Origin: a virus
Virus record (IMG/VR): IMGVR_UViG_3300020205_002432
Location: 1-36,327 of that record
Length of the DNA: 36,327 nt
Direction: 5' to 3' (one strand)
Shown: piece by piece, positions 3,412 through 16,695 of the stretch
How positions within the stretch are numbered: position 1 is the first letter of the stretch
Layout: every line of letters begins with the position of its first letter
Program-made: the position numbers and the translations under genes
The notes under the pieces: model-generated
The model's input: the letters and a program-made list of their open reading frames with translations, nothing else
Database searches by the model: none
What the model was told of the DNA's origin: nothing

Positions 3412-3724
3412 TAAGTTCTCCAAATAATTGTTTATAGTAGCCGTCTAAATTTAACTCAGCACGATCAAATACTTCTGCAGGACTGGTAAGTTCAGGATCT
3501 AGACCCTCAACCGCACAAGCCCAATCACTAAGAATACAACGAGTTTCATTACTAATGCTACGAGCACCCATTTTATATGCTTGACGCATAAAATTATCTA
3601 ATACGTCTACATCAGTATTAAAACTACGCATAGCAACCATACAACGATTACTACCTTCTTGTGGATAAGGCTCTTCATAGAACCATTTAATAAATTCTCT
3701 GTCAAGATTGTAAGGACGTGTCAT
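3401..3724 (-). CDS. Unknown small protein
   Basis: This 107-residue acidic soluble protein is taken from the ATG at 3724, right after the preceding gene's stop (TAAAATG). A longer frame with a hydrophobic N-terminus is just read-through into the neighbouring gene. No recognised motif. It overlaps the next gene by 11 bp. Confidence 0.7.
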   Translation of the reverse strand: MTRPYNLDREFIKWFYEEPYPQEGSNRCMVAMRSFNTDVDVLDNFMRQAYKMGARSISNETRCILSDWACAVEGLDPELTSPAEVFDRAELNLDGYYKQLFGELNES

Positions 3725-3725
3725 T

Positions 3726-4034
3726 TTATTCAATCGGAGTAATAAATTTAAAAACCTGAGTAGCAATATTGCCATTACGAATACTGCCACGATAGTTTGT
3801 AGCATCGTCTAACTCTACTTCATAAAGTGTAATTATTTTAGCAGTATCATGATAAAATATTTGTACGTCTGTGTGCATTATAAGCTCTTTAAGATTAGCC
3901 TCTAGTGCATTAGGCAACGCAGGAGGATTTAATTTTGATAACTGTGCATCTCTAACATTGATAACTGTACCAGTAAATAGACCTTCAATAGCCTGAATAT
4001 TAACTCTAGTACCTATATTAATAGTTTCTGCCAT
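3726..4034 (-). CDS. Small beta-barrel-like protein, paralogue of its neighbour
   Basis: This 102-residue protein begins with a KOW/SH3-like pattern (IGTRVNIQAIEGLFTGTVINV, about residues 6-26). The adjacent upstream gene 4034-4261 has the same pattern (INTKVIIELPEGEFTGTIIG), pointing to tandem duplication and divergence. The role is unknown; small beta-barrels often bind nucleic acid or protein. Confidence 0.7.
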   Translation of the reverse strand: MAETINIGTRVNIQAIEGLFTGTVINVRDAQLSKLNPPALPNALEANLKELIMHTDVQIFYHDTAKIITLYEVELDDATNYRGSIRNGNIATQVFKFITPIE

Positions 4035-10742: not shown

Positions 10743-11116
10743 CACAAAAAATAGCAATTAATAAAGATTTTGGTGGGTTTGCAATTAGCGACCAAGCATT
10801 TGAAATGTTTTTATCATTAAAAAATATTGAGTTTGAAGCTACTGAAACTAGTAGTGCTTTTATTGGTAAAAACTATTGGGCAAAAGGTCACGCTGAAGAT
10901 GAAGAATATTATTTAAATCAATATGAATTATGTAAAGAACGTGACGATATTCATCTTATCGCAGTAATTGAAACACTTGGTGAGTTAGCTAATAGTAATT
11001 TTGCTGATATTGCAATTGTAGAAATTCCTGATGATGTCAAATGGCATATTCATGAGTATGATGGTATAGAGTACGTTGCTGAAAATCATAGGACATGGCG
11101 TGCCCCACACATTTAA
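10739..11116 (+). CDS. Conserved phage protein, unknown function
   Basis: This 125-residue protein ends in FADIAIVEIPDDVKWHIHEYD then GIEYVAENHRTW, a C-terminal signature I associate with a widespread uncharacterised phage family. The N-terminus starts with a beta-type KDFGGFAISDQAFEMF. It overlaps the start of the UvdE gene. Confidence 0.75.
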   Translation: MTQKIAINKDFGGFAISDQAFEMFLSLKNIEFEATETSSAFIGKNYWAKGHAEDEEYYLNQYELCKERDDIHLIAVIETLGELANSNFADIAIVEIPDDVKWHIHEYDGIEYVAENHRTWRAPHI

Positions 11117-12107
11117 TCAAAATATTAATCGTATAGGCTTTGCTTGTAAAATTCAAGATACTACAGGTAAAGCCGACCCTAAACTGAACACAAAGACCAC
11201 TACACTAACTTGGCTTAACAGTCAAACACGCGATAAGAGTGTGCAAAAGCTAGAATTAATCATGCAGAATAACTGTATGGCATTAAAACAGCAAATGCAT
11301 TGGCTAGCGAAACAGCCACCCAATCAGCGTATGTTTCGTATTAGTAGTGATCTTTTTCCTGCGTACACTCATGACGATTGGGCATGGTGGTACTACGAAC
11401 CAAACCAAACAAATTATTTAGAAAAACACTTAGCAGAAGTTGGCGAGTTAGCTAGACAGAATGATATCAGACTGTCTTTCCACCCTGGTCAATTCTGCGT
11501 ATTAGCTTCGGAACATGATGGAATTGTTGATAATAGTATCAGGGAGTTTGAATATCATACTGACGTCGCCCGTTATATGGGTTACGGCAGATCTTTTCAA
11601 GACTTTAAATGTAATGTACACATCGGTGGTAAGCGGGGACCTGCTGGAATTCAGGCTGCTCTAAAAAAACTTAGTACTGAAGCTAGAAATATTATTACAA
11701 TCGAAAACGCAGAGTATACTTGGGGTCTAGACGCAAGTTTAGAACTTATGCTTGACTGTGCATTAGTGCTTGATATTCATCACCATTGGATTGCAACAGG
11801 CGAGTATATTGAACCAACAGATGACCGCTTTCAAGCTGTAGTAGAGTCTTGGCGGGGTGTACGTCCTGCTGTGCATTATAGCGTGAGTCGTGAAGATATT
11901 ATCATAGACCATGATCCTAATACTAAACCAAACTTAGTTGAGCTAAAATCTCAAGGTTTTACTTCAACTAAATTACGAGCGCACAGTGAATACTACTGGA
12001 ATAAGGCAAGTAATAATTGGGCCTTGACATTTTTGCCTTATGCTGATATAATGTGTGAGTCAAAACAAAAAAATTTAGCGAGCCAACAACTAGCAGATAT
12101 GTTATGA
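11100..12107 (+). CDS. UV-damage endonuclease (UvdE family)
   Basis: This TIM-barrel, metal-dependent repair endonuclease of about 335 residues nicks DNA 5' to UV photoproducts and some other lesions. Matching blocks are NRIGFACK at the N-terminus, FRISSDLFPAYTH, LSFHPGQFCVLAS, CNVHIGGKRG, IENAEYTW, LDIHHHWI and VHYSVSRE, which hold the metal-binding His, Glu and Asp residues. I place the start at GTG 11100, preceded by AGGA, inside the end of the previous gene; TTG 11076 is the longer alternative. It gives the phage its own photoproduct repair. Confidence 0.9.
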   Translation: MPHTFNQNINRIGFACKIQDTTGKADPKLNTKTTTLTWLNSQTRDKSVQKLELIMQNNCMALKQQMHWLAKQPPNQRMFRISSDLFPAYTHDDWAWWYYEPNQTNYLEKHLAEVGELARQNDIRLSFHPGQFCVLASEHDGIVDNSIREFEYHTDVARYMGYGRSFQDFKCNVHIGGKRGPAGIQAALKKLSTEARNIITIENAEYTWGLDASLELMLDCALVLDIHHHWIATGEYIEPTDDRFQAVVESWRGVRPAVHYSVSREDIIIDHDPNTKPNLVELKSQGFTSTKLRAHSEYYWNKASNNWALTFLPYADIMCESKQKNLASQQLADML

Positions 12108-15537: not shown

Positions 15538-15613
15538 GTCGGTGTGACCCGAAAGGCTAGGGCGCGGATTGCAAATCCGTACTATGCAGGTTCGAGTCCT
15601 GCCACCGATTCCA
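15538..15613 (+). tRNA. tRNA-Cys (GCA)
   Basis: Acceptor GTCGGTG/CACCGAT, anticodon stem CGGA/TCCG with loop TTGCAAA giving GCA, T arm GCAGG-TTCGAGT-CCTGC, T73 and encoded CCA. It begins one base after the preceding stop codon. Confidence 0.94.
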
Positions 15614-15620
15614 TAACAAA

Positions 15621-15717
15621 GCACACTACTTGCCACTTAATTAATATATGTGGAGTCGTCTCGAGCACACCTTCCACGGGTAACTGGGAGCACCCAGCAT
15701 AGGTAGTGTGTTTTTTT
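15621..15717 (+). ncRNA. Branched RNA with terminator stem
   Basis: CACACTAC (15622-15629) pairs with GTAGTGTG (15703-15710), followed by seven T residues. Inside are CCAC/GTGG (about 15633-15653), GTGGA/TCCAC (about 15650-15676) and CTGGG/CCCAG (about 15684-15697), the second sharing sequence with the first. It ends immediately before the tmRNA acceptor piece. It may be a terminator for the tRNA transcript or a small RNA; it is not a tRNA. Confidence 0.55.
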
Positions 15718-15791
15718 ATGGTTGTATGAAATAGATAGAAAAGCGTTGTGGACGGGGGTGCGAATCCCCCCACCTCCACCTAATTGTTTTT

Positions 15792-15865
15792 GGGCATATC
15801 GTCCAAGTAGGACAGATAAACTCCGAATTTATCAAATGCGAGCGCGCATCTCGCTATGTCCACCA
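15792..15865 (+). tRNA. tRNA-like element (CCG anticodon) inside the permuted tmRNA
   Basis: Within the intervening segment is a 74-nt cloverleaf: acceptor GGGCATA/TATGTCC, D stem GTCC/GGAC, anticodon stem GATAAA/TTTATC with loop CTCCGAA giving CCG (Arg, codon CGG), T stem GCGAG/CTCGC and encoded ACCA. The D loop is short and lacks GG, and the T loop CGCGCAT lacks TTC, so the tertiary contacts of a normal tRNA are missing. It may be a divergent tRNA, a processing signal for RNase P and 3' nucleases, or a decayed tRNA. Confidence 0.65.
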
Positions 15866-16054
15866 ATATTTGTGGAATATCGAGAACAATTAGTTGGGGG
15901 TGTATAGTTTCGACATGGCGATAAGTACAAAAGTGGACAACTCGGAAAAGTGGAATCCGTTAGGACTGGGGGTATCTCGGTCGCAGAACACATCAAAAGT
16001 AAACGCAAACGACTCACAGTTCGCATTGGCAGCCTAAACGCTGACTAGGGTTTT

Positions 16055-16087
16055 GTCAAGTTTTCCTCGTAACAGAATAAACTTGAC
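16055..16087 (+). terminator. 9-bp hairpin at the 3' end of the tmRNA
   Basis: GTCAAGTTT (16055-16063) pairs perfectly with AAACTTGAC (16079-16087). It marks the probable 3' boundary of the mRNA piece; the T tract is missing, so it may be a processing or stabilising stem rather than a terminator. A GACCCTAAA word overlaps the 3' arm. Confidence 0.5.
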
Positions 16088-16110
16088 CCTAAATTTTATA
16101 AGGTAAAACA

Positions 16111-16695
16111 ATGCTAGAAGACATTATTAAACTCCCAGAAACATCCAGTGAATTTTTTACTAAAAATACTGGCAATCAATATGAATTTTACCTTAGCGGA
16201 GAAATTAAATCGCCAGATAATTATACAGCATGGTTTGATGTAATCAGAAATGCTAGAGAAATGGATACTATTAAAATTTATATTAATAGTTCTGGCGGAG
16301 ATTTATATACTGCACTTCAATTTTTACGTGTAATGGGTGAGTGCGAAGGTCATTTAGTTACTAGTGTAGAAGGTTCTTGTATGAGTGCTGCTACTATGAT
16401 TTTTTTAAGTGGTCATGAGTATCAAGTAACACCCCATAGTCTATTTATGTTTCACAATTATAGTGGAGGCGTATTTGGTAAAGGTGGAGAACAGTATGAT
16501 CAAATTCAGTATGAGCGTTCTTGGAGCGAGAAGTTCATGAATGAAGTCTATAAAGATTTCTTAACCACAGAAGAAATTCAATCTATGTTAAATAACAAAG
16601 ATATTTGGATGACTTCAGAACAAGTATTAGAGCGTATCGAAAAGGTAATGAAAAAATTACATGAAGAACAACAAGCATTGGAGACTAATAGCTAA
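16111..16695 (+). CDS. ClpP-like serine protease
   Basis: This 194-residue protein has the ClpP fold and triad: INSSGGDLYTALQF (about 59-72), GSCMSAATMIFLSG with Ser92, PHSLFMFHNYSGG with His115, and NNKDIWMTSEQVLE with Asp164. ClpP forms a two-ring tetradecamer degrading proteins fed by ClpX or ClpA. The phage supplies no unfoldase here, so it would need the host's. AAGGTAAAAC precedes the ATG. It follows the tmRNA directly, linking tag and protease. Confidence 0.9.
   Translation: MLEDIIKLPETSSEFFTKNTGNQYEFYLSGEIKSPDNYTAWFDVIRNAREMDTIKIYINSSGGDLYTALQFLRVMGECEGHLVTSVEGSCMSAATMIFLSGHEYQVTPHSLFMFHNYSGGVFGKGGEQYDQIQYERSWSEKFMNEVYKDFLTTEEIQSMLNNKDIWMTSEQVLERIEKVMKKLHEEQQALETNS

Follow-up and report, generated by a model that had tools for sequence, protein, structure and literature searches.

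The window, by which we mean the whole stretch of 36,327 nucleotides that was analysed (IMG/VR record IMGVR_UViG_3300020205_002432), carries at positions 15718-16091 a circularly permuted tmRNA gene, recognized by both Rfam and ARAGORN (Table 1). The Rfam model tmRNA_permuted (RF04321) matched 15720-16037 over its full length with 110.2 bits (cut-off 47, E 7e-21), and ARAGORN called a permuted tmRNA at 15689-16128 with the tag ANDSQFALAA. The piece with the acceptor strand and the T-arm lies 5' of the piece with the tag, and the two are joined by a 7-bp acceptor stem in which 7/7 pairs form. A preliminary description of this DNA had proposed the same arrangement, with the same acceptor stem (GGGGGTG/CACCTCC), and the covariance search with the Rfam permuted model that it recommended returned a match instead of the missing hit that would have spoken against it. 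It had also named a separate one-piece tmRNA as contrary evidence; the permuted gene was the sole tmRNA called in the window record, which is linear, 36 kb long and may be a fragment. The tag frame was present with its resume codon and stop, and the stop lies in a hairpin loop, as had been expected. The additional helices that had been drawn fared less evenly. In the Rfam alignment the outer helix (GGTTG/CAACT side) is present, as are the P2 pairs adjoining the acceptor stem, whereas the proposed P2 includes G-T pairs, and the middle 4-bp helix of RF04321 consists mostly of non-standard pairs in the window. The acceptor piece ends in ACCT instead of ACCA, the final A of CCA being unencoded. 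The ALAA end of the tag is presumably a degron of the ClpXP type.

Judged by its gene order, the window gene is a two-piece tmRNA. The betaproteobacterial model beta_tmRNA (RF01850) matched it end to end with 74.1 bits, below the cut-off of 84, so the threshold of that subtype was not reached, and several relatives passed it. Of the older Rfam models the betaproteobacterial one came nearest, which makes it plausible that the gene descends from a host possessing a two-piece tmRNA.

Table 1. Features of the permuted tmRNA gene and its neighbour in the window.
Feature	Position	Strand	Basis or remark
Acceptor (3') piece of the permuted tmRNA	15718..15780	+	RF04321 alignment, ARAGORN; 5' end approximate
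P2-side strand			in the acceptor piece
T-arm	15754-15770		loop TGCGAAT
Acceptor 3' strand	15771-15777		CACCTCC, then ACC; pairs with 15896-15902
Intervening sequence (IVS, spacer), 115 nt	15781..15895	+	permuted-core finder, alignment with L698
Terminal stem of the IVS	15781-15791 with 15882-15892
tRNA-Arg(CCG)-like cloverleaf with encoded CCA	15792..15865	+	ARAGORN at 95%, strict geometry scan, L698 homologue
Hairpin ATATT/AATAT, 5 bp, between tRNA-like element and terminal stem	15866..15880	+	direct reading; possible element
mRNA (5') piece	15896..16091	+	RF04321 and sequence; 3' end approximate
Acceptor 5' strand	15896-15902		GGGGGTG, then GTTTCGAC core and tag region
Tag frame ANDSQFALAA-stop	16005..16037	+	ARAGORN, Rfam alignment, sequence
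Hairpin CAGC/GCTG, 4 bp	16030-16043		tag stop in the loop
3' hairpin TAGGG..CCCTA of the mRNA piece	16046-16091
ClpP-type protease, 194 aa, directly downstream of the tmRNA	16111..16695	+	Pfam PF00574, phrog_1827

Two features had gone unnoticed in the preliminary description, namely a tRNA-like cloverleaf in the spacer and a ClpP-type protease gene as the next gene downstream. The protease was identified by Pfam (PF00574 CLP_protease, 45 bits against a cut-off of 20.2) and by phrog_1827, an ATP-dependent protease (223 bits). Among 80 ClpP relatives, a tmRNA lay at most 250 nt upstream of the ClpP gene in 11 and elsewhere in the examined stretch in 13, and ARAGORN called no tmRNA near ClpP in the other 56 (three of which had less than 600 nt upstream). 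The permuted-core finder detected a tmRNA in two of these 56 (L044 and L049). A fixed pair of tmRNA and ClpP is therefore weakly supported, with the two at most 250 nt apart in 11/80, and we regard the adjacency as suggestive and not as a rule. The phage ClpP is a possible partner of the tmRNA system. The closest ClpP relative, L002, has similar tRNA neighbours and no called tmRNA; at about 3689-3787, between tRNA-Glu and tRNA-Asp, it carries a unit bounded by the perfect inverted repeat CCATTTTTTAGTAGCG/CGCTACTAAAAAATGG. In the window, the stretch 15613-15716, which separates tRNA-Cys from the tmRNA, is a structured element whose long closing stem leads into a run of T. Its fold z was -3.5 on the + strand, it had no Rfam match at the gathering threshold, and by eye it resembles the spacer units described below (AAAGCACACTACT..GGTAGTGTGTTTT). 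The tRNA-rich region also contains a UvdE-type UV endonuclease gene (11076-12107, PF03851, 138 bits).

The tRNA-like element nested in the spacer has stems of 7-4-6-5 bp and an anticodon loop of 7 with the anticodon CCG; all four stems and the CCA are present. Its elbow is non-canonical: the D-loop AAGTA has no GG, and the T-loop CGCGCAT has no TTC (TTCRANN). ARAGORN called the element at a threshold of 95% and missed it at default; at 90%, a tRNA was called in one of 2000 shuffled window IVSs. A strict geometry scan, which required 7-4-5-5 pairs, correct spacing and CCA and did not demand loop motifs, found seven places in the window, namely the nested element and six of the ten other tRNAs that ARAGORN called there, and 0 places in 6.03 million positions of reversed sequence. 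RF00005 gave no match for the element at gathering score, nor was it listed when the best of overlapping clan members was kept.

The phage contig L698 has the same element in the corresponding position of its own, diverged tmRNA; there the D-loop is AAGTA and the T-loop TGCGATT. When the structure drawn from the window itself was applied to the alignment of the two, 65/66 pair cells were standard and four pairs had changed on both sides, in the terminal, acceptor, anticodon and T stems. When the partners were slid by 1-3 columns, there were no two-sided changes and at most 45.5% of the cells were paired. In a shuffle control for covariation, weak because it involves two sequences, 39/500 rounds reached the observed value. 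One anticodon-stem pair is broken in L698, an exact-pattern scan found no further homologues, and the isolated window IVS is predicted to prefer an alternative fold (-33.0 vs -25.0 kcal/mol for the cloverleaf fold).

Because the elbow motifs are absent, the nested element may not be an active tRNA. Decoding of CGG was considered as a role and set aside: CGG made up 2 of the 7808 codons in 32 hand-chosen ORFs of the window, and with this codon almost absent from the phage, decoding is probably not what the element is for. On this evidence it is more likely to be a handle for processing, or a tRNA that acts as decoy or replacement. As a decoy or replacement, the tRNA-Arg(CCG) would protect the phage from host anticodon nucleases that attack tRNA-Arg. 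The retention of the CCG anticodon in both the window and L698 while CGG is nearly absent from the window agrees with this, as do the ten other tRNAs on the phage; against it, the element has a single homologue, and we hold this explanation to be rather improbable.

We collected further permuted tmRNAs from viral contigs (IMG/VR) by a search guided by ClpP and by four scans for acceptor-arm patterns, and obtained at least 308 distinct phage genes with a 7/7 acceptor stem. The finder demands this stem and a TTCGAC-like core and misses other genes. Exact duplicates were removed and related contigs kept, so the counts given here are non-independent and describe a pattern-selected sample, almost all of it from metagenomic contigs. 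Of the 342 unique genes listed, 308 had a readable tag frame, the panel requiring the 7/7 stem and some genes being cut by contig ends, and tmRNA_permuted was found in 19/19 and 14/14 panel loci scanned. The cultured phages Samunavirus, Menderavirus, BUCT-ZZ01 and Rb1 also contain permuted cores, with IVSs of 57-113 nt. Permuted tmRNAs were seen in phages of Pseudomonas, Stenotrophomonas and Xanthomonas (L449, L450, L452, L453), host groups that are themselves one-piece tmRNA bacteria. One candidate, L309, which looked like an intact tRNA-Ile inside a permuted tmRNA, was a false positive of the finder and was dropped, since the order there is tRNA-Ala, tRNA-Ile and then an apparent one-piece tmRNA; L233 was filtered out in the same way although it appears genuine, and it is pattern-selected and outside the 308.

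The panel contradicts the statement of the preliminary description that phage tmRNAs are one-piece, and so does published work. According to Buchholz et al. (2022, PMC9004378), 53 of 133 unique phage tmRNA structures were two-piece by ARAGORN, 50 of these from marine or aquatic phages, and a two-piece tmRNA was described in the cultured Methylophilales phage Melnitz. A claim to the first two-piece tmRNA of a phage is therefore precluded by PMC9004378. Melnitz resembles the window in having a permuted tmRNA on a phage. Its tmRNA is of the alpha type with a glutamine riboswitch, whereas the window spacer holds a tRNA-like element instead; the riboswitch was considered as IVS cargo and rejected, being located downstream of the tag and outside the IVS.

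Among the 308 listed genes, the spacers were 5-343 nt long with a median of 76.5. In an earlier panel of 106, a terminal stem of at least 7 bp closed 95 of the 105 spacers of at least 20 nt (after shuffling, 7.25 on average and 14 at most). The window agrees in piece order, acceptor stem, T-arm and tag frame with the two-piece tmRNAs of alphaproteobacteria, betaproteobacteria and cyanobacteria (RF04321, RF01849-RF01851), and in betaproteobacterial genes (e.g., L381 and L384) the terminal IVS stem is styled as in the window. For comparison, 72 of 88 bacterial loci were parsed, 68 of them distinct. They were drawn from the bacterial class to which a Microvirga genome belongs and from the order that contains a Herbaspirillum genome, supplemented by nine scan hits; the set has no cyanobacteria, and 16 alphaproteobacterial genes in it were picked for being the longest among 150 listed. 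Permuted matches exceeded the cut-off in 263/289 genomes of the Microvirga class and in 17/300 of the Herbaspirillum order. Bacterial spacers reached 75 nt in 3/68 cases and 100 nt in 2/68. Pattern scans of genome contigs gave 0 matches with a spacer of 100-130 nt and 9 with 40-70 nt, too few to weigh much. The sampled bacterial IVSs are thus short and without an ORF, whereas those of phages extend to 343 nt and bear genes.

T-arm hairpins were present in 5 of the 308 listed IVSs and, in the earlier panel, in 4/106 against a shuffled mean of 0.43. Their recurrence is compatible with the idea that the tRNA-like element of the window is not cargo and serves as a processing handle, its stack of acceptor and T-arm recruiting RNase P and 3' enzymes to cut a long spacer. 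Such a role would also agree with cloverleaf stems and a CCA that are retained while the elbow is lost, and with the scarcity of CGG codons. However, most IVSs, the longer ones included, have no tRNA-like element (ARAGORN at 90% called a tRNA in 5/340 listed spacers), and we consider this role possible, though on balance unlikely.

T-arm hairpins without a full canonical tRNA were observed in the spacers of L317, L320, L341, L343 and L351, of L028 and L340, of L051, L331, L332 and L336, and of L329; most of these were chosen by a T-arm pattern, and they look as if assembled from tRNA pieces. The spacer of L321 contains two units in tandem with GGTGGTGCTCCACCA between them, possibly the footprint of a cassette insertion. 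No known RNA family was found as cargo of structured IVSs at the gathering threshold in 19 loci, and no group I intron family in the window and the panel loci scanned.

Some spacers appear to encode small proteins. We counted an ORF when an SD-like sequence and ATG or GTG stood near the 5' end and the frame stayed open over at least 75% of the spacer, in spacers of at least 75 nt. Among the 308 listed genes, an ORF with a ribosome-binding site was found by this rule in 49 of 162 such spacers, compared with a mean of 5.3 and a maximum of 13 in 100 rounds of shuffling and with 3 in the reverse complement. The stop codon fell exactly 1 base before the spacer end in 32 of the 49, and in 10 the frame stayed open into the mRNA piece with no stop within the IVS. 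None of the three bacterial spacers of at least 75 nt had an ORF by the same rule; since just 3/68 were long enough for it, the contrast between phages and bacteria is mainly one of length.

The coding test was performed on a looser set of 93 candidate ORFs from 340 genes, including two pattern-selected groups, and 67 of the candidates grouped into 21 families. The pooled pN/pS was 0.35 in the proposed frame and 0.89 and 1.86 in the other two. Four of the 21 families had values from 0.7 to 1.8, so some candidates are probably false. For a few products, Pfam gave a domain. The spacer ORF of L527 encodes an 84-aa thioredoxin-family protein with a WCGPC motif (75.4 bits), which matches profile positions 22-102 of 103 and is without the usual N-terminal part, and that of L145 matches CxxCxxCC (29.4 bits; tblastn of the product against phages gave no match). 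Two matches lie outside the 49: an Oxidored-like domain in L151 (45.6 bits), where no start codon was seen, and PGDYG in L288 (27.8 bits, cut-off 27), from the pattern-selected set. Most other spacer products tested had no Pfam match above cut-off. By eye, many are 21-40 aa long and membrane-spanning in appearance. The 216-nt spacer of L507, also by eye, holds two short ORFs in succession (36 and 25 aa), which make up a mini-operon within the tmRNA gene.

The Shine-Dalgarno sequence lies within the 5' arm of the terminal stem in 47 of the 49 ORF spacers. Its predicted unpaired probability had a median of 0.56 as long as the 3' arm is missing and 0.00 once the precursor is complete, and the complete precursor gave the lower value in 49/49. 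This modelling suggests that spacer ORFs are translated on nascent RNA only.

Melnitz itself has a candidate ORF in its IVS, with a GGAG site (MZ577097, 46096-46218; MFKWLSKTRLVV... / MFKWLSKTRLVVITRDYFRERNRKADAKIPKYLSGTRSVYD, read by eye). It is identical in the four deposited Melnitz records and represents a single sequence, as no match was found in other records of the phage collection at E 0.01. No CDS is annotated there, the site being inside the SsrA feature, and the portion of PMC9004378 available to us makes no mention of it. In open-access literature searched by title and abstract, with subscription journals mostly outside, we found no description of ORFs in tmRNA spacers.

Nested genes in tmRNA genes have precedents. 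The nominally archaeal GCA-2688965 has a permuted tmRNA with an intact tRNA-Ala in its intervening sequence (PMC11915505). As in the window, a tRNA gene is nested in the IVS; the tRNA is a different one, the genome is not a phage, and no exchange pattern is described in the part of that paper at hand. The same paper reports group I introns within some tmRNA genes, and some of these introns carry homing endonuclease genes. There, as in the phage spacers, a removable part of a tmRNA gene harbours other genes, but removal of the phage spacer would be tRNA-type processing at the permutation point and not splicing.

Comparison among loci indicated that spacers are exchanged. Among the loci listed, 124 pairs had tmRNA bodies of 95% identity or more, and in 94 of these the spacers fell below 60% identity; conversely, at least 74 pairs combined different acceptor stems with spacers of 75% identity or more that had at least 15 8-mers in common. 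For example, L035 and L584 have 76/77 spacer bases in common (99%) in bodies that are 58% identical. In L120/L124 and L034/L035 the flanks are 95-97% identical and the spacers differ, and the flanks of L113/L317 and L028/L133 had no match at all. Because similar bodies carry unlike spacers and like spacers sit in unlike tmRNAs, the spacer, as read from these alignments, is a segment that moves independently of the surrounding tmRNA; the tmRNAs move too. It might be objected that cargo exchange and nested genes are artefacts of chimeric assembly, as IMG/VR contigs are mostly metagenome-assembled. We give this very little credence: the same boundaries recur in at least 308 distinct loci, an IVS ORF is also present in cultured Melnitz and identical across its four records, and the two pairs with nearly identical flanks differ at the IVS.

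We believe it quite probable that the gene of the window is a permuted tmRNA gene whose spacer serves as a cargo slot. The anatomy, conservation and exchange of this slot are drawn from sequence comparison, and its contents are dissimilar and exchangeable structured RNAs, tRNA-like elements and small protein genes set between stems. It could be argued instead that this is an ordinary phage permuted tmRNA with neutral filler in its spacer, the tRNA-like element and the ORFs being functionless debris of recombination. The wild variation in spacer contents is what such filler would produce, insertions would be cheap in a segment that is removed from the mature tmRNA, the tRNA-like element lacks elbow motifs in a phage that hardly uses CGG, and 4/21 ORF families show no clear purifying selection. 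Filler would not, however, be expected to show pooled in-frame purifying selection over the ORF families, curated Pfam domains, compensatory changes in the nested tRNA, or ribosome-binding sites and stops whose positions fit the IVS ends. We therefore regard neutral filler as a poor account of these spacers.

For the cargo slot, we propose the following course of events. A single precursor would be transcribed from the permuted gene. Known precursors of this kind are cut by tRNA processing enzymes (PMC11915505). In line with established tmRNA processing, RNase P would free the mRNA piece at G15896, and 3' processing with CCA addition would mature the acceptor piece. The IVS would thereby be excised and could act separately as a tRNA-like RNA, a structured RNA or a short mRNA; that IVSs longer than those of the sampled bacteria are excised as well is an assumption. 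The IVS is absent from the mature tmRNA of the permuted type. Because it is removed, its content would be neutral for tmRNA function and could be swapped, by recombination through the conserved flanks. Because the Shine-Dalgarno sequence sits in the terminal stem, translation of coding IVSs would probably be possible mainly while the transcript is still growing and lacks the 3' arm. Together with host SmpB, the mature tmRNA would act in the rescue of stalled ribosomes, and the tagged products would go to ClpXP and possibly also to the phage ClpP.

We lean slightly towards a broader proposal, in which the permuted tmRNA genes of phages would generally serve as docking sites for mobile cassettes of mini-genes that are released by the host, each phage carrying an interchangeable accessory gene. 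The conserved flanks would permit exchange between very different tmRNAs, the host tRNA-processing machinery would release the cassette, and the terminal stem would shield the RNA and close the ribosome-binding site. The accessory gene would be a tRNA, a regulatory RNA, a membrane peptide or a thioredoxin. When the ORF has no stop in the IVS (10/49), excision would give a non-stop mRNA, and the tmRNA from which it was cut would tag its product, closing a loop that limits itself in a manner similar to ArfA.

If phages indeed have such an exchangeable gene slot, permuting an RNA gene circularly opens a site where insertions are neutral, which would give a reason why permuted forms suit phages. 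The hypothesis is testable in a cultured phage, Melnitz. The spacers would then conceal a stock of small phage proteins and RNAs that annotation can skip, as in the record of Melnitz, because of the overlap with an RNA gene.
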